The translations under genes were made by a program, and so were the position numbers. From NCBI GenBank assembly GCA_902806055.1, contig CADCVD010000043.1, forward strand, positions 1 to 45,862: a stretch of DNA of 45,862 bases. The letters run 5' to 3'. Origin of the DNA: an uncultured Rubrobacteraceae bacterium (GTDB lineage Bacteria > Actinomycetota > Rubrobacteria > Rubrobacterales > Rubrobacteraceae). How positions within the stretch are numbered: the first letter of the stretch is position 1; each line of letters starts with the position of its first letter. Below the pieces are notes generated by a model. That model was given only the letters and a program-made list of their open reading frames with translations. It had not been told where the DNA came from and did no database searches. This document shows positions 5,581 through 38,962 of the stretch, one piece after another.

Positions 5581-6801
5581 ATGCTAGAAGGAAAGAAAGT
5601 AGTGCTCGCGTACTCCGGGGGGCTGGATACCTCGGTGTGCCTGAAGTGGTTCGAGCAGCAGGGCGCGGAGCCGTATGCGCTGTACCTGGACCTCGGACAG
5701 GGAGAGCCTGCCGAGGACGTTAGGGCGAAGGCCCTGAAGATAGGGGCCGTGAACGCGTTCGTAAAGGACGCGAGGGCCGAGTTCGTCGAGGAGTACGTCG
5801 CGCCCGCGATCAAGGCGAACGCACTCTACGGCGGGAAGTATCCGCTCTTTACGGCGCTCGGGCGACCGCTCATAGCGAAGAAGCTCGTCGAGGTGGCGCG
5901 CGAGGTGGGGGCGACGCACATCGCGCACGGGTCGACGGGGAAGGGCAACGACCAGGTCCGCTTCGACGTCACGACTGCCTCTATCGCTCCGGACCTGACC
6001 GTGGTCGCCCCGGTGCGCGACTGGAACATGAGCCGTCCGGAGGAGATAGCCTACGCCGAGGAGCACGGCATCCCCGTCTCCGTCACCAAGAAGTCTCCCT
6101 ACAGCGTGGACGAGAACCTCTTCGGCCGCTCCATCGAGGCCGGTCCTCTGGAGGACCCCGATCACGAGCCGACAGAGGACGTCTTCGCCCTCACCGCCGC
6201 CCCCGAAGATGCTCCGAATGAGCCAGAGTACGTGACGGTAAGCTTCGTCGAAGGGCTGCCTACCAGCCTGAACGGCGAGGAGTTACCGCTCGTAGAACTT
6301 ATAGTTGAGCTGGATCGCATAGCTGGAACACACGGGGTCGGGCGTATTGACATGATCGAGGACAGGCTAGTGGGCATCAAGAGCCGTGAGATCTACGAGT
6401 GCCCCGCCGCCCTCGCTATTATTCAGGCCCACAAAGAGCTTGAGACTATGACCCTCACCAAAGACGTCCTGCGCTTCAAGGCCGCCGTCGAGCAGCGCTA
6501 CGCAGAGCTCACCTACGACGGTCTCTGGTTCACGCCCCTCAAGCGCGCCCTCGACGCCTTCGTCGCCGAGACCCAAAGGACCGTTACAGGATCTGTTCGC
6601 CTGAAGCTGTACAAGGGGACGAGCACGGTCGTCGGGCGTACGGCTCCGCAGGCGCTCTACAGTAAGGAGCTCGCCACCTACGACCCGAACAGCACCTTCG
6701 ACGAGGCGGCCGCCGCCGGCTTTATAGCCCTCTGGGGTCTACCGGCGCGCCAGTGGGCCGGGGTCAACGGCGGCGTCGAGACCCATCCGGCGGCGAAGTA
6801 G
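5581..6801 (+). CDS. argG: Argininosuccinate synthase
   Basis: ATP-dependent condensation of citrulline and aspartate, the penultimate arginine step. The 406-residue product is of normal length. Visible signatures are the PP-loop VVLAYSGGLDTSVCLKW at the N-terminus, HIAHGSTGKGNDQVRFD (aspartate/citrulline binding), VTKKSPYSVDENLFGRSIE, and GVGRIDMIEDRLVGIKSREIYE. A GGGAGG ribosome site precedes the ATG by 5 bp. No ArgR-like box was found in the 45 bp upstream, so it is probably read from the argC/argR promoter. The final gene argH is not in the window. Confidence 0.96.
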   Translation: MLEGKKVVLAYSGGLDTSVCLKWFEQQGAEPYALYLDLGQGEPAEDVRAKALKIGAVNAFVKDARAEFVEEYVAPAIKANALYGGKYPLFTALGRPLIAKKLVEVAREVGATHIAHGSTGKGNDQVRFDVTTASIAPDLTVVAPVRDWNMSRPEEIAYAEEHGIPVSVTKKSPYSVDENLFGRSIEAGPLEDPDHEPTEDVFALTAAPEDAPNEPEYVTVSFVEGLPTSLNGEELPLVELIVELDRIAGTHGVGRIDMIEDRLVGIKSREIYECPAALAIIQAHKELETMTLTKDVLRFKAAVEQRYAELTYDGLWFTPLKRALDAFVAETQRTVTGSVRLKLYKGTSTVVGRTAPQALYSKELATYDPNSTFDEAAAAGFIALWGLPARQWAGVNGGVETHPAAK

Positions 6802-6822
6802 CCGGGGCGTAAGGCCGGAGAG

Positions 6823-7377
6823 ATGCAGACTGTTACCGTCGGCGGCGCGAGCCTGGAACTGGTGCAGGGCGACATCACCGAGCAGGATACCGATGCGATC
6901 GTCAACGCGGCCAACAGCGGGTTGTCAGGCGGAGGAGGGGTGGACGGAGCGATCCACCGGGCCGGAGGTCCTCGGATCATGGAGGAATGTCGGCGAATAG
7001 GCGGCTGCCCGACCGGGGAGGCGCGCGTTACCTCGGGCGGCGACCTTACGGCCCGTTACGTGATCCACGCTGTCGGCCCGGTCTATAACGATGGCGCCTC
7101 CGGCGAAGATCGACTGCTCGCGAACGCCTACCGCAACAGCCTTCGCCTCGCCGTCGAAACAGGTCTTAAGAGCATCGCGTTCCCCTCGCTCTCGACCGGG
7201 GCCTACGGCTATCCCTTGCGCGAAGCCGCTAGCATCGCCCTGGAGACCGTTGGGGAGTTCTTGAAGACCGGGCGGCACGACCTGGAGCTGGTGCGCTTCG
7301 TTCTCTTCGACCAGCGTACCCTCGAAGAGTTCGAGCAGGCGCTCGGCCGCGTAACGTCCGGGCGCGAGGGAGCATGA
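6823..7377 (+). CDS. Macro-domain protein, O-acetyl-ADP-ribose deacetylase type
   Basis: Macro domains bind ADP-ribose. This one resembles the MacroD/YmdB class, which removes acetyl groups from O-acetyl-ADP-ribose and mono-ADP-ribose from acidic residues (family knowledge). The 184-residue protein reads VQGDITEQDTDAIVNAANSGL with the catalytic-loop SGGGGVDGAIHRAGG, then CPTGEARVTSGGDL, YVIHAVGPVY, and the second phosphate loop FPSLSTGAYGYP. All key loops are intact. It starts 21 bp after argG and overlaps the next gene by 4 bp (ATGA), so it is translationally coupled to the phosphatase/arsenate-reductase-like gene. Confidence 0.92.
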   Translation: MQTVTVGGASLELVQGDITEQDTDAIVNAANSGLSGGGGVDGAIHRAGGPRIMEECRRIGGCPTGEARVTSGGDLTARYVIHAVGPVYNDGASGEDRLLANAYRNSLRLAVETGLKSIAFPSLSTGAYGYPLREAASIALETVGEFLKTGRHDLELVRFVLFDQRTLEEFEQALGRVTSGREGA

Positions 7378-30341: not shown

Positions 30342-30815
30342 CTACCGTTTACCGGCTGGCCGGAGCGTGGCGAGGAGCAGTAGCACAACACCGAGAACGA
30401 TGGCGATGTCCGCAGCGTTGAAGACGGGCCACCACTGTAGGGGCCAGAACTGAAGATCCAGAAAGTCTGTGACCCGGCCTTCGGCGATCCGGTCGAGTAG
30501 ATTGCCCGCGGCGCCGCCGAGCACTAAGCCGCACCCCGCGACGGTGAGACGGGTAGGTAGACCGGCGAACAAGACCCAGAGGACGAACACTATCGCGACG
30601 GCGCTCCCGGCTAGCAGCACGGCGATCTGGCCGCCCAGTATGCCGAAGGCGCCGCCCGAGTTCTTTACGTAAGTGAGGTAGAGGACGTCCTGGATAACGG
30701 GGATACTCTGCCCGGTCCTCATCGAGCCCTCTACGAGCCTTTTCAGGAATTGGTCCGCGAAAAAGACCGTGAGGGCGAGCGCGAGGGCGAGTCCTGCTCC
30801 GGCGGCGCGGCTCAT
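30342..30815 (-). CDS. lspA: Lipoprotein signal peptidase (signal peptidase II)
   Basis: Aspartic membrane protease that cleaves prolipoprotein signal peptides before the lipid-modified cysteine. 157 residues with four helices. Conserved: FFADQFLKRLV, VKNSGGAFGIL, GGAAGNLLDRIAEGRVTDFLDL (first catalytic Asp) and WPVFNAADIAIVLGVVLL (second catalytic Asp). Candidate substrates in this window are the HtrA-like protease (lipobox LTGC) and the 48-residue Tat lipoprotein (LSAC). It faces the EthD pseudogene, with only 7 bp between the ends. Confidence 0.95.
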   Translation of the reverse strand: MSRAAGAGLALALALTVFFADQFLKRLVEGSMRTGQSIPVIQDVLYLTYVKNSGGAFGILGGQIAVLLAGSAVAIVFVLWVLFAGLPTRLTVAGCGLVLGGAAGNLLDRIAEGRVTDFLDLQFWPLQWWPVFNAADIAIVLGVVLLLLATLRPAGKR

Positions 30816-30850: not shown

Positions 30851-31609
30851 TCAGTCGCCACCGTGAGGGCCTTCGCCGTGGGGCGAGGAGCTGCTCTCGA
30901 CGGTGACGCCCCGTATGTTGAGCATGCCCTGCATCATCTCGATCTCGGCCTGCTGCGAGGCGGCTATGGCGCTAGCGAGGCGGTTGACTTCCTCTTGGTC
31001 GGTCTCTTCGATAATAGCGTTGGCCATAGGCACCGCGGCTTCGTGGTGCGGGATCATGAGCTGCAAAAAGAGCTTGTCAGCCTCCTCGGGGGACGCGTTC
31101 TGCAGCTCGTCTATCTCCGCAGGCGAGGCCATACCAGGCATCCGGTCCTCCGTCGGCATCCTCATCCAGCTCATCGCTGGCTCTTCTCCGGTGGCCGGGA
31201 GGTTCCAAACGTCGAGCCAACCGTGCATCTGCCCGATCTGGGCCTGCTGGGTCAGGGCGATGTCGGCGGCGAGCATCCTTATCTCCTCGCTCTCCGTCTT
31301 GTCCCGTACGATCTCGGCCATCTCGACGGCCTGGGCGTGGTGTATGGTCATATCTCTAACGAAACCGGCCTCCGCAGAGCCTTCCTCCGGCATCCCGGTC
31401 CCTATCTCCAGCGCCGGCCCTTCATCCCCCGGCCCATCGTCGCCGCCAACGAAGAGCGACGCAAGGGCCGCTCCCGCCGCGAGACCGAGCACGATAGCCC
31501 CCAAGGAGAGAACCACTGAGAGGATTCGGCTCCGGGAGAGCCAACCGCGCCCGGATGGAACCTCCTCCTGGGGGCGTTCGGCGGGACTCTGTTGCGCCGT
31601 CTCTCTCAT
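30851..31609 (-). CDS. DUF305 family protein, membrane-anchored
   Basis: 252 residues. After a charged cytoplasmic N-terminus comes one helix (ILSVVLSLGAIVLGLAAGAALASLF), then two copies of the DUF305/CopM-like four-helix unit. The first has FVRDMTIHHAQAVEMAEIV and QQAQIGQMHGWLDVW; the second has FLQLMIPHHEAAVPMANAI and QQAEIEMMQGML. The HH/HxxM repeats are the hallmark and suggest metal (copper) binding at the extracytoplasmic face. A His-rich tail ends SSPHGEGPHGGD. It begins right after the DUF3105 stop, with no gap, so both are one transcript. Confidence 0.9.
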   Translation of the reverse strand: MRETAQQSPAERPQEEVPSGRGWLSRSRILSVVLSLGAIVLGLAAGAALASLFVGGDDGPGDEGPALEIGTGMPEEGSAEAGFVRDMTIHHAQAVEMAEIVRDKTESEEIRMLAADIALTQQAQIGQMHGWLDVWNLPATGEEPAMSWMRMPTEDRMPGMASPAEIDELQNASPEEADKLFLQLMIPHHEAAVPMANAIIEETDQEEVNRLASAIAASQQAEIEMMQGMLNIRGVTVESSSSPHGEGPHGGD

Positions 31610-32263
31610 CTACGCTGTGCTGCCGATGCCGCCGGTGCAGGCGGCGCCCTTCTCAGGAGTCTGAGGACCCTGCCGGAAGGCGGTAATGAACTGGTCGAGC
31701 CTGGGGTCGTCGACACCGTCCAGCTGGATCTGACGGTTCCAGGCCGACGCGACGACCGGCGTGCCGGCGGGCAGGTCTTCGTAGGGGCTAGCCATGAGAC
31801 AGTTCTTGCCCTCGACGACCTCCTCCAACTCGTCCCTCTCCTCCTGCGAGAGGTCGGGGGAGTAGGCGATCCAGACCGCCCCGTGCTCCAGGAGATGCAC
31901 GGCGAGCTCGTTTCTTACAGGGTCGTCGTAGAAGCCCTGGTTCTGCCACGCGGGGTTGTGCTCACCGCCGACCGGGGGGCTCTGCTCGTAGTCTACGGTG
32001 CCCTGGGTGTGCTGGCCCGCGCCGCCGTAGTCGAACTCCTCGACCCCTTCGGGAGGGTCCCCGGAACCGTCCGCCCGCTGTTGGCTGTCGAAGTATATAA
32101 GGGAGCCAAAACCTATCACAAAGGCCGCGACGACCAGGCCGACTATCAGCCAAGTCTTGTTAATGCCCCCCGCTGATGGCCTCTTCGCTACGCCCCTGCT
32201 CTTGCCCAACTCCGTACCTTTCTCTATAGTCTTAGGTTCCGCCGCGTGCAAATCGTAGCACAC
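31610..32263 (-). CDS. DUF3105 family membrane protein
   Basis: 217 residues. One helix (TWLIVGLVVAAFVIGFGSLIYF) precedes an extracytoplasmic domain. The DUF3105 motif is clear: GTVDYEQSPPVGGEHNPAWQNQGFYDDPVRNELAVHLLEHGAVWIAYSP. The invariant His residues (HN, H of AVHLLEHG) point to a metal site. Such genes are usually beside DUF305, as here. The start is uncertain: GTG 32263 gives an odd CYDLHAAEP N-terminus, while a TTG near 32209 with AAAGG upstream would start at GKSRG. The two proteins may work together on copper (inference). Confidence 0.88.
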   Translation of the reverse strand: MCYDLHAAEPKTIEKGTELGKSRGVAKRPSAGGINKTWLIVGLVVAAFVIGFGSLIYFDSQQRADGSGDPPEGVEEFDYGGAGQHTQGTVDYEQSPPVGGEHNPAWQNQGFYDDPVRNELAVHLLEHGAVWIAYSPDLSQEERDELEEVVEGKNCLMASPYEDLPAGTPVVASAWNRQIQLDGVDDPRLDQFITAFRQGPQTPEKGAACTGGIGSTA

Positions 32264-32292: not shown

Positions 32293-32664
32293 CTACCATC
32301 GCGTCATCGCAAGTGTGGCCGGGGCGGCCCACACAAAGATCACGGCCACAGCCGCCGTCCGGTTGACCGGTCTGCCTGCGAGCGTTTGGGTTCTCTCGTG
32401 GCATTCGGCTAGGACGGGCCGCGGGATCGTGCGTGTCACGATCGCTATCCCCAGCGGAACCAGCAACAGGTCGTCCAGGTAGCCGAGGATGGAGATAGGG
32501 TCGGGGACCAGATCTATCGGGCTGAACGCGTACCCGACCACGATGGTGGCAAAGACCTTCGCGTGTAGCGGTACCCGCGGGTCCTTGTACGCGAGGTAGA
32601 GCGCGTAGAGCTCCGATTTGAGCCTCCTTGCCCACCGTTTCAGACGCTCGATGGTCTTATCCAT
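32293..32664 (-). CDS. DUF1232 (YkvA-type) membrane protein
   Basis: 123 residues. The DUF1232 motif is plain: YLAYKDPRVPLHAKVFATIVVGYAFSPIDLVPDPISILGYLDDLLLVPLGI. Family proteins carry one or two helices and have no proven function. Its ATG overlaps the stop of the CDF exporter upstream by one base, which suggests a shared transcript. The last helix segment is VAVIFVWAAPATLAM. Confidence 0.88.
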   Translation of the reverse strand: MDKTIERLKRWARRLKSELYALYLAYKDPRVPLHAKVFATIVVGYAFSPIDLVPDPISILGYLDDLLLVPLGIAIVTRTIPRPVLAECHERTQTLAGRPVNRTAAVAVIFVWAAPATLAMTRW

Positions 32665-33605
32665 TATTCGCGGCGAGAGCGGAAGCGCAGGGGCTGGAGC
32701 GGGGCCTGGTGGTCACCTGCGTGGTCTACCTGGAGGGTGGTGTGCTCGATGCCGTACTCTTGCTTTAGCAGGTCTTCGAGTTCGCGCCGGCGGTCGTGAC
32801 AGTTTTCGTCGCGGCCGACGAGCACGTGGGCGGCGAGCGCCGGGAAGCCGGAGGTGATGGTCCAGATGTGCAGGTCGTGGACCTCCTGAACGCCCGGTGC
32901 GCCGGCCATCTTTCTACCGACCTCCTCGGCGTCAACGCCTCGGGGCGTGCCTTCGAGGAGGATATTGGTGGACTCGCGCAGGAGGCGCCAGGAGCTCCCC
33001 AGGACCAGCAGGCCGATCAGGACGCTGATGAGCGGGTCCGCGTAGCGCCATCCGGTGGCGAGGATCACGATCGCGGCGGCTATCGCGCCGACCGAGCCGA
33101 GTATGTCGGCCACGACATGCCGCAAGGCGCCCTGGAGGTTCAGGCTCTCGCCGCCCGATCGCGAGAGGATCAGGGCGCCCGCGACGTTTACCAGGAGACC
33201 CAGGATCGCCACCGCCAGCATCCAGCCGCCCAGGATCTCGGGCGGCTCCCACAGGCGCCGGTAGGCCTCCACAAAGATCCAGATAGAGATGGCGACGAGC
33301 GTCGCCCCGTTGACGAGGGCGGCCAGGATCTCGGCGCGTTTGTAGCCGAAGGACCGGTTCGGGGTCGCCGGCCTCCCCGCCAGCCATACGGCGAAGAGCG
33401 CCAGCCCCAGAGAGAATGAATCCGAGAGCATGTGCCCGGCATCCGCGAGCAGCGCGAGAGACCCCGTAACGAGCCCGCCGGCGACCTCGATCGCCATGAA
33501 CGCGGTAGTGAGGACGAAGACAACCGCGAGCGCGCGCCGGTCTGCGCCGCGTCCGTGGTCGTGCTCTCCGTGCGCGCCCTCTCCGTGAGAGTGGGAATGG
33601 GCCAA
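32664..33605 (-). CDS. CDF-family cation efflux protein (CzcD/ZitB type)
   Basis: Proton-coupled export of Zn2+ or related metals. 313 residues. It starts with a His-rich segment (HSHSHGEGAHGEHDHGRG), then six helices. Zinc-site residues lie in LLADAGHMLSDSFSLGLALF (helix 2: H-x3-D) and LRHVVADILGSVGAIAAAIVI (helix 5: H-x3-D). The C-terminal cytoplasmic domain shows VHDLHIWTITSGFPALAAHVLV. Next to DUF1232 and a small membrane protein. No MerR- or ArsR-type regulator is beside it. Confidence 0.94.
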   Translation of the reverse strand: MAHSHSHGEGAHGEHDHGRGADRRALAVVFVLTTAFMAIEVAGGLVTGSLALLADAGHMLSDSFSLGLALFAVWLAGRPATPNRSFGYKRAEILAALVNGATLVAISIWIFVEAYRRLWEPPEILGGWMLAVAILGLLVNVAGALILSRSGGESLNLQGALRHVVADILGSVGAIAAAIVILATGWRYADPLISVLIGLLVLGSSWRLLRESTNILLEGTPRGVDAEEVGRKMAGAPGVQEVHDLHIWTITSGFPALAAHVLVGRDENCHDRRRELEDLLKQEYGIEHTTLQVDHAGDHQAPLQPLRFRSRRE

Positions 33606-33606
33606 G

Positions 33607-33834
33607 CTAATCCTCTCGGTACTGCCTCAAGGCGTACCAAGCGCCGAAGGCTATCTGGGTCGCGCCGATGATCCGCAGGTAGCTCGGGTTTTCGGCGAAG
33701 AAGCGGACCAGCTTGCGCACGCTCTCGGGTCCGGTCTCCCAGAGCAGGGAGTGTTCTCTAGGGGCGAGGAGCGCGATGACCCCGTCGCCGACGGTTAGTA
33801 TGGCGGCGGTCTCTTTGAGTCTCTTGGCCCACAT
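33607..33834 (-). CDS. Small protein with one or two hydrophobic segments
   Basis: 75 residues: ETAAILTVGDGVIALLAP, then PESVRKLVRFFAENPSYLRIIGATQIAFGAWYALRQYRED. The C-terminal helix may span the membrane. It ends one base before the CDF gene's start, and AGAGGAGC about 9 bp before the ATG acts as ribosome site. A similar short protein beside CDF exporters is plausible, but I do not recognise the family. Probably real because of the tight spacing. Confidence 0.6.
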   Translation of the reverse strand: MWAKRLKETAAILTVGDGVIALLAPREHSLLWETGPESVRKLVRFFAENPSYLRIIGATQIAFGAWYALRQYRED

Positions 33835-33856
33835 GTTCGTGCTCCTCTCGTCTTCG

Positions 33857-34945
33857 TTAGCCGCGCTCGCCGAGCTCGACCGTTATCTCCTGCTCTTCGC
33901 CGCTCCGGACGACGGTGAGCTCCACGCTGTCGCCGGGCCGGTAGTCGCGCAGTACGCCCAGCAAATCGCCCGAGTCCTGTATCTCCGTGGAGCCTGCGGC
34001 GACGATCACGTCCTCCACCTCGACTCCTGCCTCGTCCGATGGCCCGCCTGACTCGACGTTGGTGACGAGAGCGCCGGATTCGACCGAGAGGTCGAACTGC
34101 TGAGCCGTCTCCGCTTCGAGGGTCGCCAGCCCCACCCCTAGGAACGGTTGGGTCGCCTCGCCGTCCTCGATAAGCTGGTCGGCGACGGAGATCGCCGTGT
34201 CCGTGGGAATGGCGAAACCGATGTTCTCGGCCCCGGTCTGCTGAGGGGGGAGGTAGGCGACGTTAATGCCGACGACCTCCCCCGAGCGGTCGGCCAGAGC
34301 CCCGCCGGAGTTGCCGGGAGAGATGGCCGCGTCCGTCTGGATCAGATCCACCAGGGAAGTGTCGCCCCTGCTGAGCTCGGGCGGTATCTCCCTGTTGAGC
34401 CCGCTGATTACACCGGAGGTGACGGTAGACTCGAAGCCGGCGGGACTGCCGATAGCGACGGCGAGTTGGCCCGGGACGAGGTCTGCGTTCTCGGCGAACT
34501 TCGCCGCCGGCAGGTCTTCGCGGTCCACCTTGATCACAGCGAGGTCGGTGTATGGGTCGGTTCCGACGATCTCGCCGCTCTCGGTGGTGCCGTCGGCGAA
34601 GGCTATGTTGACTTCGTTGGCTCCCTGAATAACGTGATTGTTGGTGACGATGTAGCCGTCGCGGCGGTAGATCACGCCGCTCCCCAACCCCCGGGCCTCC
34701 TGGGCACCGCCGAACTGGTTCCTCTGTACCGCCTCGACGTTGACCTGCACGACCGAGGGGCTCACCTGAGCCGCGACTTGTGCCACGGGTTCGTCCTCCG
34801 GGATATCGCCGGATACACCCGGAGCGGTCTGCGCGATGTTCTGGGCCTTCTGCCCATCCTGCAAGAGCGAGCAGCCTGTAAGCACCGCCGTCATCAGCGC
34901 GAAGACTATCATTGCCAGGACCGCTTCTCTTCTCAACTCTTGCAA
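33857..34945 (-). CDS. HtrA/DegP-like serine protease, lipoprotein form
   Basis: 362 residues. Signal peptide with a lipobox: AVLTGC, Cys25 lipidated. The S1C trypsin-like domain has the triad: TNNHVI (His), DPYTDLAVIKVDR (Asp) and DAAISPGNSGGAL (Ser). One PDZ domain follows at the C-terminus (FLGVGLATLEAETAQQFDL, GGPSDEAGVEVEDVIVAAG). Typical for quality control of extracytoplasmic proteins. Cleavage by the LspA encoded 3 kb away is expected. A GGAGG site precedes the ATG. Confidence 0.95.
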   Translation of the reverse strand: MQELRREAVLAMIVFALMTAVLTGCSLLQDGQKAQNIAQTAPGVSGDIPEDEPVAQVAAQVSPSVVQVNVEAVQRNQFGGAQEARGLGSGVIYRRDGYIVTNNHVIQGANEVNIAFADGTTESGEIVGTDPYTDLAVIKVDREDLPAAKFAENADLVPGQLAVAIGSPAGFESTVTSGVISGLNREIPPELSRGDTSLVDLIQTDAAISPGNSGGALADRSGEVVGINVAYLPPQQTGAENIGFAIPTDTAISVADQLIEDGEATQPFLGVGLATLEAETAQQFDLSVESGALVTNVESGGPSDEAGVEVEDVIVAAGSTEIQDSGDLLGVLRDYRPGDSVELTVVRSGEEQEITVELGERG

Positions 34946-35072
34946 ACCTCCTGTCGCTCGTCGTCCGTTGAACTTATACGGTTGCCCTTCGATTGGGTTT
35001 CCGAGCGTGTGAGTTACACCGTGAGTATAGCAAGGCGCGCGAGAGCCTCCGCCGGTGTACCCTTACGTCCTT

Positions 35073-35420
35073 ATGGGCGCCAAGCAGCACAGAAGAGAGT
35101 TCTCGGCGGAGCTCGCCCACGCCGGAGAGGCGCGCCACTTCATCGCCTGGACGGGCGCCGCCGCCGGACTGCGCGGCGGTTCCTTGAGCGACCTCGCCGT
35201 CGCCGCAGAGGCTCTGCTCACCGACATCTTTCTCTCCGTCGAGATAGGCGAGACGCTCGTGGTCGAGTCCGAGGCGACCGAAGATACGGTGAGGACAATA
35301 GTCCGCCACCCCGAGCTACGCGAACGCCGCATGTCGGGGCTCGAAACCATCATGGAGCAGTTTCTCGACGGGTATGAGATCTCTCCCGACAAGGCCGTAA
35401 TGATCAAACGTCTGGGCTGA
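35073..35420 (+). CDS. Degenerate RsbW-like (HATPase-fold) protein
   Basis: 115 residues from ATG 35073 (GTG 35055 is another possible start). The first half (RREFSAELAHAGEARHFIAWTGAAAGL, SDLAVAAEALLTDIFLSVE) looks like the N-terminus and N-box helix of anti-sigma kinases of the RsbW/SpoIIAB type, where EALLTN is expected; here Asn is Asp. The D-x-G-x-G and G2 loops for ATP are absent. The remainder (ATEDTVRTIVRHPELRERRMSG) does not match. It may be a former regulator that lost ATP binding. Assignment is tentative. Confidence 0.4.
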   Translation: MGAKQHRREFSAELAHAGEARHFIAWTGAAAGLRGGSLSDLAVAAEALLTDIFLSVEIGETLVVESEATEDTVRTIVRHPELRERRMSGLETIMEQFLDGYEISPDKAVMIKRLG

Positions 35421-35499
35421 GAATGGTGCCCGATGTTCTGTGAGATAATCCGTACAAGACGCAGATAAGCTAGGGGAGACCTCGAAGGAGGGGGCACGC

Positions 35500-35646
35500 A
35501 TGCAGGATACAGAGACCCGACAGGAGATGAGCCGCCGCGGCTTTCTCGAACTCGGCCTGGCGAGCATCTCCGGGACGGCGCTGCTCTTCCTCTCGGCGTG
35601 CGGCGGCGAGCAGGATGACGACGACGAAGGCGATGACGACGACTAA
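35500..35646 (+). CDS. 48-residue Tat-signal lipoprotein with an all-acidic tail
   Basis: From ATG 35500 (GAAGGAGGGGG ribosome site 5-6 bp upstream): a twin-arginine motif SRRGFLE (11-17), a hydrophobic stretch LGLASISGTALLFL, and a lipobox LSAC with Cys34. The predicted mature protein is only 15 residues, C-G-G-E-Q followed by four Asp, Glu, Gly and four Asp. A -10-like GATAAT lies near 35443. Its stop overlaps, end to end, the stop of the opposite gene by 2-3 bases. It could be a metal-binding or charged surface peptide; no family is recognised. It could also be the 5' remnant of a longer Tat protein. Confidence 0.6.
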   Translation: MQDTETRQEMSRRGFLELGLASISGTALLFLSACGGEQDDDDEGDDDD

Positions 35647-35936
35647 GCCCCCGGCTCAACTCGCTGCCGAAGCCTCTCCTTGACTCGTTCCTCCTCGTCT
35701 TTGAGGTAGAGAAAGACGTCTTGAGCGAAGCGAAGCGCGTGCTCCTCGGGCAGGTTGACTCGCCGGTTGGATATAACTGACTCGAGTTCCTTTACGGCCG
35801 CGTCCACCATCCCGACCATCATCTCGGCCTGGCGCAGCACCTCCTCACGCTCGATATCCGGTAGAGCATCCGGGCTCTCGGCCTTCTCCCGGTGTTCTCG
35901 GAGGTACTGGATAAAGTCCCTTATGCCCAAGATCAT
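35643..35936 (-). CDS. Hypothetical alpha-helical protein, 97 residues
   Basis: Starts ILGIRDFIQYLREHREKAES and continues as an alternating charged helix (EREEVLRQAEMMVGMVDAAVKELESVISNRR, AQDVFLYLKDEEERVKERLRQ). No transmembrane segment; a coiled-coil or helical bundle is likely. GAAGGAG lies just before the ATG. It converges on the small lipoprotein gene, with stops overlapping (TAG on one strand within TAA of the other). Function not recognised. Confidence 0.6.
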   Translation of the reverse strand: MILGIRDFIQYLREHREKAESPDALPDIEREEVLRQAEMMVGMVDAAVKELESVISNRRVNLPEEHALRFAQDVFLYLKDEEERVKERLRQRVEPGA

Positions 35937-36114
35937 GCTCCTTCTGAAACGTCGTACGACGGCTGCCAGGATACTACCTGCAGACGAATCTTTCGCGAGC
36001 GTGAGGCCCGGCTACGAGTAACCGGGGCCGCCGCCTCTCACGCCTCGTCGGCGTTTAGCGCGCGCCGCCTCCAGACGTAAGAATGCTCGGGTTAGTTGTT
36101 TGCTGTCCCGGTTC

Positions 36115-37560
36115 TTAGGAGCGGGACTCTTCCAAGATCTTCGGCGTGACCCTGGCTGAGCCTACAGCCCGGGCGTGTTCCTCGGCGAGCCTGCGCGCCC
36201 GCCCTCTTAGAAAGGCTGGCACTTCCTCAAGCTCCGCGAGCGCCTCCTCGGTCCAGGCGGGACCCTGCGGCGAGACCTCGGGCTCTGTCGCGGGGCTTCG
36301 GGGCTCGCGCAGGGCGTGATCCAGGATGTCGGCCAGCTCACTAGAGCCTGCGTAGCCCATGAGCGGACGCTCAACGAAACGAGGCTCCGAAACCGGGGGA
36401 CACAAGGGTAGGAATGGAATGCCTAAAGAGTCTGCTACCTCTATCTCCAAGCGTGTTCCGACGAGGAGATCGGGGTTAGTCGCCTCCACGCGGGCCGCGA
36501 CCGTCTCCGGGTCGTCGGCGACGAACGCTTCGTCGGTAAAGGTGTCGGCCCGGAAGAGGAAGTCCTTCTCCAGATGAGTCAGGTAGGTGCCCGCCCATGC
36601 TACCTCCAGGCCGACCTCACGGGCGAGGGTGTAGCCGAGGCCGGTCGTGTAGGTCAGGTCGCCAAAGAGGGCCACGCGGCGTCCCCGAAAGGTTTCAGGC
36701 GCAGCCAGCCGGGCGTACCAAGAGAGCTTCGCCGTCCGGGCTAGCTCTGCCCACGCAGTCCTCCGCACTCGCTTGGGGTCAAGAGAGCACAGCTCGGCCG
36801 CTGCCCGCAGGACCGCTCCGGTGCCGACGGAGCCGAACGGGGGCGTGGTTATCCTTGGCATCCCGAACTCGTCCTGAAGATACAGCGACGCGGACTCGGT
36901 CGTCTCCCGGTAGAGGACGACGTTCGCCCAGGCCCGCGGCAGGCGGCACAGATCCTCGACCGTGGCCCCGAGCGGCGCTCGGACGTTTACTCTTATCCCC
37001 ACGAGCCCCAGTACGCGCTCCACCTCCGCGACCTCTGCCTCCACGTTCGGCCCGAGCACGGGCGAACCGAAGATGTTGACGGTGGGCCCCGGGCTCTTCG
37101 ACTGCGCCTGAGCGTGAGCCTTGACGAGCTCCAGAAAGACTTTGTCCGCCGCCTCTACCTCCCGCATGCCCGGAGACTCCCACTCACAGGTCACGAGCTT
37201 TGGGGAGCGGCCGGTCTCGGGGCTCTCGGGGAGGGCGGTGATGGGCGTACCCTCGCCCGCGAGGAGAGCCGTCTCCGAGCGCGCGAGGAGCAAGGTCTCC
37301 GCCTCCGGGCGGCGTCGCGCCATGCCGGAGAGGTCCCGAGCTACGTCCCCGGCCCCCCAAGATCCGCCTGCGTGCTCCCGGACGGGGCTAAGGGAGAAGG
37401 CGGGAAGATCTCCAGTCCGCATCCGGGATCCGTACAGAGCCGGGAAGCCGCCCTCGCTTGGGTACGCTCGCAACACCGCGTGCACCCCTCCAATGCTCGC
37501 CGCTGTCCGGAGGATGCCGTGACTCCCCGGACCCTCGTAAACGTCGCGCAACACCTTCAA
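36115..37560 (-). CDS. BchB/ChlB-like nitrogenase-family subunit
   Basis: 481 residues. The N-terminus VYEGPGSHGILRTAASIGGVHAVLRAYP aligns with BchB (MYEGPAHIGTLRVASS..VHAIMHAPLGDD), and the C-terminus WTEEALAELEEVPAFLRGRARRLAEEHARA is the PCP_red domain that closes authentic BchB. The middle has FGSPVLGPN, GRRVALFGDLTYTTGLGYTLAREVGL and PDLLVGTRLEIEVADSLGIPFLPL. In BchB, Asp36 is a ligand of the [4Fe-4S] cluster; by ungapped alignment Glu36 (in PSEGG) takes its place. Start TTG 37560 matches BchB Met1. It follows the BchN-like gene after 7 bp. Whether it reduces protochlorophyllide is not known; no BchL is in the window. Confidence 0.85.
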   Translation of the reverse strand: MKVLRDVYEGPGSHGILRTAASIGGVHAVLRAYPSEGGFPALYGSRMRTGDLPAFSLSPVREHAGGSWGAGDVARDLSGMARRRPEAETLLLARSETALLAGEGTPITALPESPETGRSPKLVTCEWESPGMREVEAADKVFLELVKAHAQAQSKSPGPTVNIFGSPVLGPNVEAEVAEVERVLGLVGIRVNVRAPLGATVEDLCRLPRAWANVVLYRETTESASLYLQDEFGMPRITTPPFGSVGTGAVLRAAAELCSLDPKRVRRTAWAELARTAKLSWYARLAAPETFRGRRVALFGDLTYTTGLGYTLAREVGLEVAWAGTYLTHLEKDFLFRADTFTDEAFVADDPETVAARVEATNPDLLVGTRLEIEVADSLGIPFLPLCPPVSEPRFVERPLMGYAGSSELADILDHALREPRSPATEPEVSPQGPAWTEEALAELEEVPAFLRGRARRLAEEHARAVGSARVTPKILEESRS

Positions 37561-37567
37561 GAGCGCC

Positions 37568-38962
37568 TCAAAGGTCGAGGGCGTCGAGAGCCTCGGCCCG
37601 TTCGAAGGTCCGGGCGAAGAGTTCCAGAATCCGGCGCGCTCCCCCGTAACCGTGAATCCCTAGGGAGAGGAGGCCCAACGAGGAGCAGCACAGGTGTCCG
37701 CGCGCCACGAGCGGGGCGTAGAGTCCCGGGCTCGCTACCACCACGTCGGGATGGGTGGAGTCTATACGCTCCAGTTGTGCCCGCCAGTCCGGAGCCTCGA
37801 CTACGTCTACGTCCTCCCCGAGGGCAGAGAGCTCCGCCGCGAGAAAGCGCTTCTCTAGCCGCGGCGTGCCCACCTCGACGACGACTGCCCCCGCTCCGGC
37901 CAGGAAACGGGCGAGCGGCACCTCGAGGCCCGTATCACCAGTAAAGAAGATACGTTTGCCCCGTATGCGGTTCCGCAAGGGCTCCAACTCCCGCCATACC
38001 TCGCGGGCCCGGCCTCCCTCGCTCGTAGATCGCCCTGCCAGAGCGACGACGTCTTGAACGAAGCGGGCCGTACCGTCTACTCCTATAGGAAACAGAGTTC
38101 TCACCACCGCCGCTCCACGATCCTCGGCCGCTCGGCTGCTTCCTGCGAGGTAAGGGTCCATCGACGCCACAACTGTTCCCTCGCCGACGGCCGGGAGTTG
38201 GCCGGACATCGTATCCGGAAAAGCGCCGGAGACCTCGACCCCGGCGCGTAAAAGCTCGGCAGAGAGCTCCTCTCGCTGTCCGGGCAACCCGCCGAGCAAG
38301 ACTACCGGACGCCGCGCTCCACGCTCGCTCGCGCCCCGTCTCCCGGCGCGTCCTCCCAGCGGAAGCCTGCCCAAGAGGCCTCCCTTGGAGTAAGATCGTG
38401 ACTCCTCCGGCTCAAGGAGGAGACCCTCTTGGGGCGAGAGCTCGACGAGGGCTCGAACCGCTGCATCTTCGAGGTCCGTGTTCAAAACACCCAGACTACC
38501 GTCGTCAGGGGCGATAGCCCGAACCGGCAGCCCCAGGCGTCGGCCGGCGACTTCAGCCTCGAAGGACGCGTCGACGCCCAGCAGGGCTGTAGACCGGCAC
38601 GCGACGAGCAGCACCACGCCTGTGTGCTGGGACCCTGCCGCAGCCTCGATCACGCGTGATGCTAAGGCGCCCTCCGGCGGCTGCTCGTCCGGCTCCAGGA
38701 CCACGAACGTTACACGGGGGTGCAGGCCCGCGTCCTGACCGGCACGACTTACTGGGAGGCCGGGGAGAGGTACAGCGAGAGACCGGGCAAGGTGTACGTC
38801 CGCCCGGGTCCCCGCCACGACCAGGAGGGCGTCCGGTAGCTTCTCGGCAAGGGAAGGGAGGCCGCGCAGGGGGGAGACTACGTCCGGCACTCCTGACTCG
38901 TTGAGTATAGTCAATCTCTCTCCCGCAATCTCTCGTTGGTCCTGCTCTGAACGTCCCGGCAA
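37568..38962 (-). CDS. BchN/ChlN-like nitrogenase-family subunit
   Basis: 464 residues. The C-terminal half is clearly BchN-like: FPIGVDGTARFVQDVVALAG, VWRELEPLRNRIRGKRIFFTGDTGLEVPLARFLAGAGAVVVEVG, PDVVVASPGLYAPLVARG and LGIHGYGGARRILELFARTFERAEAL. In the N-terminal half the positions of the three cluster Cys of BchN (26, 51, 112) hold Ser30 (VVSPLRG), Asp55 (GTRADVHL where BchN has GTRTCAHL) and Cys122 (LVACRST); only one Cys stays. So the usual 3 Cys + Asp cluster of the NB complex cannot form as known. Upstream are two nucleoside phosphorylases on the same strand, 37 bp away. Confidence 0.8.
   Translation of the reverse strand: MPGRSEQDQREIAGERLTILNESGVPDVVSPLRGLPSLAEKLPDALLVVAGTRADVHLARSLAVPLPGLPVSRAGQDAGLHPRVTFVVLEPDEQPPEGALASRVIEAAAGSQHTGVVLLVACRSTALLGVDASFEAEVAGRRLGLPVRAIAPDDGSLGVLNTDLEDAAVRALVELSPQEGLLLEPEESRSYSKGGLLGRLPLGGRAGRRGASERGARRPVVLLGGLPGQREELSAELLRAGVEVSGAFPDTMSGQLPAVGEGTVVASMDPYLAGSSRAAEDRGAAVVRTLFPIGVDGTARFVQDVVALAGRSTSEGGRAREVWRELEPLRNRIRGKRIFFTGDTGLEVPLARFLAGAGAVVVEVGTPRLEKRFLAAELSALGEDVDVVEAPDWRAQLERIDSTHPDVVVASPGLYAPLVARGHLCCSSLGLLSLGIHGYGGARRILELFARTFERAEALDALDL

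Follow-up and report, generated by a model that had tools for sequence, protein, structure and literature searches.

The window analyzed here, a stretch of 45,862 nucleotides from an uncultured Rubrobacteraceae bacterium (genome G000; 3.15 Mb in 192 contigs), carries a very short plus-strand gene, here called the micro-gene, between a divergent gene for an HtrA-like serine protease (htrA) and a convergent, conserved 97-aa gene (orf97). The features of the locus are as follows.

30342 to 30815, minus strand: lspA, the only LspA match of the genome, about 5 kb from the micro-gene
30851 to 31609, minus strand: DUF305 protein (domain match)
31610 to 32263, minus strand: DUF3105 protein (domain match)
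32664 to 33605, minus strand: cation efflux (CDF) transporter, in the htrA direction (Cation_efflux, E = 4e-47)
33857 to 34945, minus strand: htrA, with Trypsin_2 and PDZ domains and a lipobox-like LTGC of its own
35055 to 35420, plus strand: 121-aa ORF (orf121), function unassigned, upstream of the micro-gene
35441 to 35449, plus strand: extended -10-like element TGAGATAAT (pattern match), possibly a separate promoter between orf121 and the micro-gene
35486 to 35491, plus strand: Shine-Dalgarno AGGAGG, read in the sequence, 8 nt before the ATG
35500 to 35646, plus strand: micro-gene, 48 aa, with ATG at 35500 and TAA at 35644 to 35646
35530 to 35547, plus strand: twin-arginine motif codons, SRRGFL (residues 11 to 16)
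35590 to 35601, plus strand: lipobox LSAC (residues 31 to 34), with the Cys codon at 35599 to 35601
35599 to 35643, plus strand: mature part CGGEQDDDDEGDDDD
35643 to 35936, minus strand: orf97, function unassigned, whose stop overlaps the end of the micro-gene by a few bases

Translation of the ORF gives MQDTETRQEMSRRGFLELGLASISGTALLFLSACGGEQDDDDEGDDDD, with a hydrophobic core between SRRGFL and LSAC, and the anatomy described in the original prediction (twin-arginine motif, hydrophobic core, lipobox, and a mature part of 15 residues, 10 of them Asp or Glu) was confirmed in full. The reverse strand of 35500 to 35646 is also open in one frame; the plus strand is favored as coding because relatives and codons support it. 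Upstream, 4 of the 10 orthologues described below (G000, G001, G002, and G009) have a similar -10-like element 50 to 60 nt ahead of the start codon; by the same pattern, it is absent from the other 6. Group-wise upstream alignments otherwise gave no clear common motif that might serve as a shared operator, and a promoter scan requiring a -35 box listed no plus-strand site. There was no Rfam match in 33800 to 36200 and no predicted terminator in 34900 to 36000.

The locus is adjoined by BchB- and BchN-like genes of the dark protochlorophyllide reductase type (36115 to 38962, minus strand); genes of this type in Rubrobacter have already been published (Gupta and Khadka 2016, as cited in the available part of PMC4783071). 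The proximity of lspA is probably a coincidence, and we did not count this gene in the system because nine related neighboring stretches contained no LspA match.

Orthologues at a constant but patchily occupied locus

The class sample comprised 39 genomes, all of one family. Searched against these, a profile built from a nine-row alignment of the protein (A1) gave 10 matches at E ≤ 1.4e-15, one per genome (G000, G001, G002, G007, G009, G013, G025, G034, G035, and G037), with scores that are high by construction, since nine of them were the rows of the profile (G002 has the same genus label as G000); the next match among those listed had an E value of 2.9e-10 and was a 510-aa frame. An initial protein search of 99 genomes had returned short relatives amid many long Tat lipoproteins, with eight of the orthologues as the eight best rows, G002 as the ninth, and G037 lower. 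Across 396 genomes of the phylum, the rows at E ≤ 1.4e-15 were the same ten among the matches listed, which outside the family included one short acidic match (E = 1.1e-6), on a short contig of G064 that lacks the locus. That G064 sequence (L048:3601-3723, minus strand; another family of the phylum) is a short Tat lipoprotein whose tail consists solely of Asp and Gly, and it is perhaps of independent origin. A phage or virus origin of the micro-gene was rejected, as none of 22 pattern matches in viral contigs was confirmed as a relative with alignment A1.

Residues M1, R12, F15, L16, the lipobox Cys, G36, and E37 are invariant across the nine A1 rows, and acidity follows. The original prediction had envisaged that the layout might not be conserved at all or that the same start might run on into a larger domain in relatives; what we found instead were ten orthologues of the same layout at the same locus, in three genera (g1, g5, and g12), with stops after the short tail and 0 of 10 continuing into a downstream domain. 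Ten same-locus orthologues together with the mixed codons of the tail (see below) exceed what chance would produce. We regard the micro-gene as very probably a real and complete Rubrobacteraceae gene encoding a predicted lipoprotein (probability of roughly 0.85).

In all ten orthologous loci htrA is the divergent neighbor, with the micro-gene always pointing away from it and 180 to 642 nt separating the two, measured to the edge of the HtrA match, and where both neighbors are on the contig the micro-gene lies between htrA and orf97. The 121-aa ORF accompanies it at only 3 of the 10 loci. Orf97, found in 34 of the 39 genomes, is 3.6 kb away in G013 and 1.9 kb away in G002, with the micro-gene still next to htrA; in G009 the micro-gene is beside htrA on a contig without a 97-aa match. 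Presence is patchy. We examined 36 loci (35 with orf97, plus that of G009), of which 28 had matches to both HtrA and orf97 and 7 had no HtrA match in range. The micro-gene was present at 9 of the 28 two-flank loci, leaving 19 that have htrA but not the micro-gene. On the HtrA tree (28 rows) this distribution needs six changes, of which four are imposed by branches with good support, and on the BchB tree (33 rows) it likewise needs six, of which five are so imposed. Six gains or losses on the HtrA tree mark the micro-gene as dispensable, and constant position combined with patchy presence would fit an old gene lost several times. In G031, the gap contains a start resembling the micro-gene N terminus on the right strand, followed by divergence, which is probably a 5' remnant of the gene at its site. 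No other plausible remnant was seen in the gaps of genomes without the micro-gene; many other gap matches were on the minus strand, where the lipoprotein signal of HtrA itself lies.

Beyond htrA, in the same direction, follow a 75-aa ORF without a Pfam match and genes for CDF, DUF1232, DUF3105, and DUF305 proteins, the last being a domain of the copper-binding protein CopM, according to the portion of PMC4335983 available. The row recurs in G013 (with a weak, out-of-order DUF1232 match), G025, G034, G035, and G037; the stretches from G001, G002, G007, and G009 yielded no more than a part, and in these DUF305 and DUF3105 do not occur together. A CDF gene adjoins htrA at all 10 loci that have the micro-gene versus 8 of the 15 testable loci that lack it (Fisher P value = 0.02, uncorrected for kinship; the 25 loci exclude those with HtrA unmatched or with a stretch ending too soon past HtrA). 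The CDF link and DUF305 lean toward envelope cation handling, and kinship could explain them.

Signal sequence and acidic tail

The sequence carries the marks of a Tat-type lipoprotein: an S/T-R-R-x-F-L motif and a lipobox with an invariant Cys, in a genome in which the genes for TatC, Lgt, and LspA were each found once over the cutoff. Pfam TAT_signal scored 12.6 bits on the 48-aa protein, under its cutoff of 22.7, so that support for Tat comes from the motif and the relatives and not from a curated model. The twin arginines are kept in eight orthologues and replaced by RA in G034 and G035; because these two lack the second Arg, the conserved core would be the lipid anchor and acidic tail and not strict Tat targeting. 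The original prediction held that the Tat pathway makes little sense for so short a tail. We consider this argument weak: Tat-type lipoprotein signals are common on long proteins in these genomes, 2 of the 10 orthologues have RA, and hydrophilic, unstructured passengers of 100 to 120 residues were tolerated by Tat, according to the part of the review PMC6708511 that was available, so that a 15-residue tail as Tat cargo is unremarkable in itself.

In the nine intact copies, the mature part is 7 to 26 residues long with 4 to 12 acidic residues, the usual length being about 7 to 15, with 26 in G001 and only 7 in G037. The consensus of these mature parts is C-[GAL]-G-E-[EQ], followed by Asp, Glu, and Gly and usually ending in DD (eight of nine). 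The Asp and Glu codons of these tails are mixed (42 GAC, 19 GAG, 17 GAA, and 7 GAT). By comparison, the 15 residues after the Cys in 22 long Tat lipoproteins are on average 11% acidic (maximum, 33%), these controls being nonrandom regular-expression picks from loci mostly fetched for likeness to the micro-gene. Pooled pN/pS was 0.25 for the mature part versus 0.60 for the signal (36 pairs from nine sequences), values that are uncorrected for saturation or kinship and that the alignment of a low-complexity tail biases toward low counts; the tails of G000 and G009 compared with each other gave no constraint (pN = 0.27, pS = 0.26). The constraint on the tail concerns charge and not exact sequence.

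The acidic tail is in frame in 9 of the 10 orthologues. The exception is the frameshifted G002 copy, whose own frame loses the acidic tail; PREEQEEEEDDEDED, followed by a stop, is read in another frame. In the G002 stretches (L045 and L089), HtrA, BchN, a nucleoside phosphorylase, and the micro-gene are all split between frames, which suggests indel errors or decay; for the tail these two cannot be told apart, because HtrA in the same record is also frame-split. In G001 (L088), the acidic tail continues in frame into GGRRRRRRRR, the eight Arg residues being encoded by five different codons, and in G007 (L090) the DNA past the micro-gene stop is likewise rich in Arg codons.

Other short lipoproteins occur elsewhere in these genomes. 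Two more of Tat type, with Gly-rich tails ending in Tyr, lie at unrelated loci of G000 (L004 and L006, on contigs C63 and C89). At another locus, G021 (L047:6976-7188) and G029 (L051, near 6998 to 7126) have short Tat-like lipoproteins whose long acidic tails end in GGGLY; their N termini resemble those of the window family (MPDTNE), and they are possibly relocated relatives. In G011 (L046, near 6795 to 6920), again at another locus, a short lipoprotein-like ORF has the acidic tail CGGEEDDDDEEEDD and an altered Tat motif.

Possible roles and known systems

We propose that a Tat-type signal (Tat-like in the two RA relatives) would carry the peptide across the membrane, where Lgt and LspA would lipidate and cleave it at Cys34, yielding a diacylglycerol-anchored acidic peptide on the outer face of the membrane. 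The tail may then work by its charge, as a fixed surface polyanion that holds divalent cations or basic partners, and the peptide would be made beside, and perhaps together with, the envelope protease HtrA and the adjoining cation-efflux gene. Cation binding is suggested because the neighbors of htrA include the cation-efflux transporter and the DUF305 protein; the affinity of such a tail for copper or zinc would be weak, since it offers no His, Met, or Cys ligand besides the lipidated Cys. The metal-binding or surface-charge role put forward originally is compatible with the data and stays putative, the interpretation being partly supported, and we hold a membrane-tethered polyanion acting by a cation or charge mechanism only tentatively, at somewhat less than even odds. 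More speculative, and in our view unlikely, is a dedicated surface polyanion, a micro-lipoprotein family whose Tat-type signal would place an unfolded, charge-only lipopeptide on the outer face of the membrane. There it would buffer divalent cations in concert with the adjacent HtrA and cation-efflux row, a gene product thus taking over part of the role that anionic wall polymers have elsewhere.

The leading rival, which we also consider improbable, is that the peptide serves the divergent HtrA as partner or regulator: a lipid-anchored acidic ligand, ending in -DD, that would engage, on the same face of the membrane, either the PDZ domain or a basic patch. The constancy of htrA as neighbor, the lipobox-like N terminus and PDZ domain of HtrA here, and the near-universal DD terminus all speak for such a partnership. 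Against it, htrA so often stands without the micro-gene, the tail is constrained in charge rather than in exact sequence, and the PDZ domains of HtrA proteases are generally said to favor hydrophobic C termini. Just as doubtful is the reading that the peptide adds general surface charge or serves as filler, with little specific function, as one of several micro-lipoproteins that these genomes freely make and lose. Its patchy presence, the probable remnant in G031, and the other short lipoproteins of Tat type that have Gly or acidic tails and lie at unrelated loci agree with this, whereas the pooled pN/pS of the tail and the persistence of the gene at one locus in three genera do not.

The remaining alternatives are far less probable. 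That the ORF is untranslated and its GAC-rich stretch a simple repeat would accord with the out-of-frame copy in G002, but the ribosome-binding site, the mixed acidic codons, and the nine kept frames make this very unlikely. Lipoprotein signal peptides are the source of the enterococcal pheromones, and the very short mature part could be taken to mean that here, too, the released signal peptide is the active part and the tail only aids export; since the signal ends differently from copy to copy and is more variable than the tail, we regard this as extremely unlikely. As for a truncated stub of a solute-binding protein of which the start survives, many long Tat lipoproteins of the family do share the signal type, yet the long proteins score well below the ten orthologues, and the idea, barely credible, is refuted by the relatives examined, which all end after the short tail. 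If translated, the micro-gene product would rank as a very small lipoprotein of Tat type whose mature part is conserved, and nature would offer in it a way to see whether the Tat pathway takes unfolded cargo as short as about 15 residues. It would, moreover, be an example of selection keeping a lipid anchor and charge alone, in a class of genes that length-limited gene finders could overlook.

Tat lipoproteins and mini-lipoproteins are known kinds that we have not found combined in print: no title listed by our literature search describes a Tat-type mini-lipoprotein with a polyacidic tail. One family of similar build is TIGR02811, the formate dehydrogenase region Tat target. Beyond its Tat signal, this tiny protein has next to no mature part, and it resembles the micro-lipoprotein in size and signal type; it was not among the three NCBIfam families matching the 48-aa protein at E ≤ 1, and no formate dehydrogenase was found among the neighbors scanned by Pfam. 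The Agrobacterium protein Atu8019, an entericidin-type small lipoprotein, is a very small lipid-anchored surface peptide, as the micro-lipoprotein is predicted to be, but it belongs to the Gram-negative outer membrane, as far as the available part of PMC7296081 describes it, whereas the tail considered here is polyacidic; Pfam gave no entericidin match to the 48-aa protein, the only match at E ≤ 1 being TAT_signal. Tat-exported lipoproteins of the same genomes, such as solute-binding proteins, have the same SRR-x-FLK motif, hydrophobic core, and lipobox but carry domains of hundreds of residues in place of a short acidic tail. Exported metal-binding proteins of the CopM/DUF305 type, finally, act in extracytoplasmic metal handling and have a DUF305 counterpart in the gene row of the micro-lipoprotein; in the portion of PMC4335983 consulted, CopM is rich in His and Met and has HH motifs, whereas the tail of the micro-lipoprotein offers Asp and Glu only.
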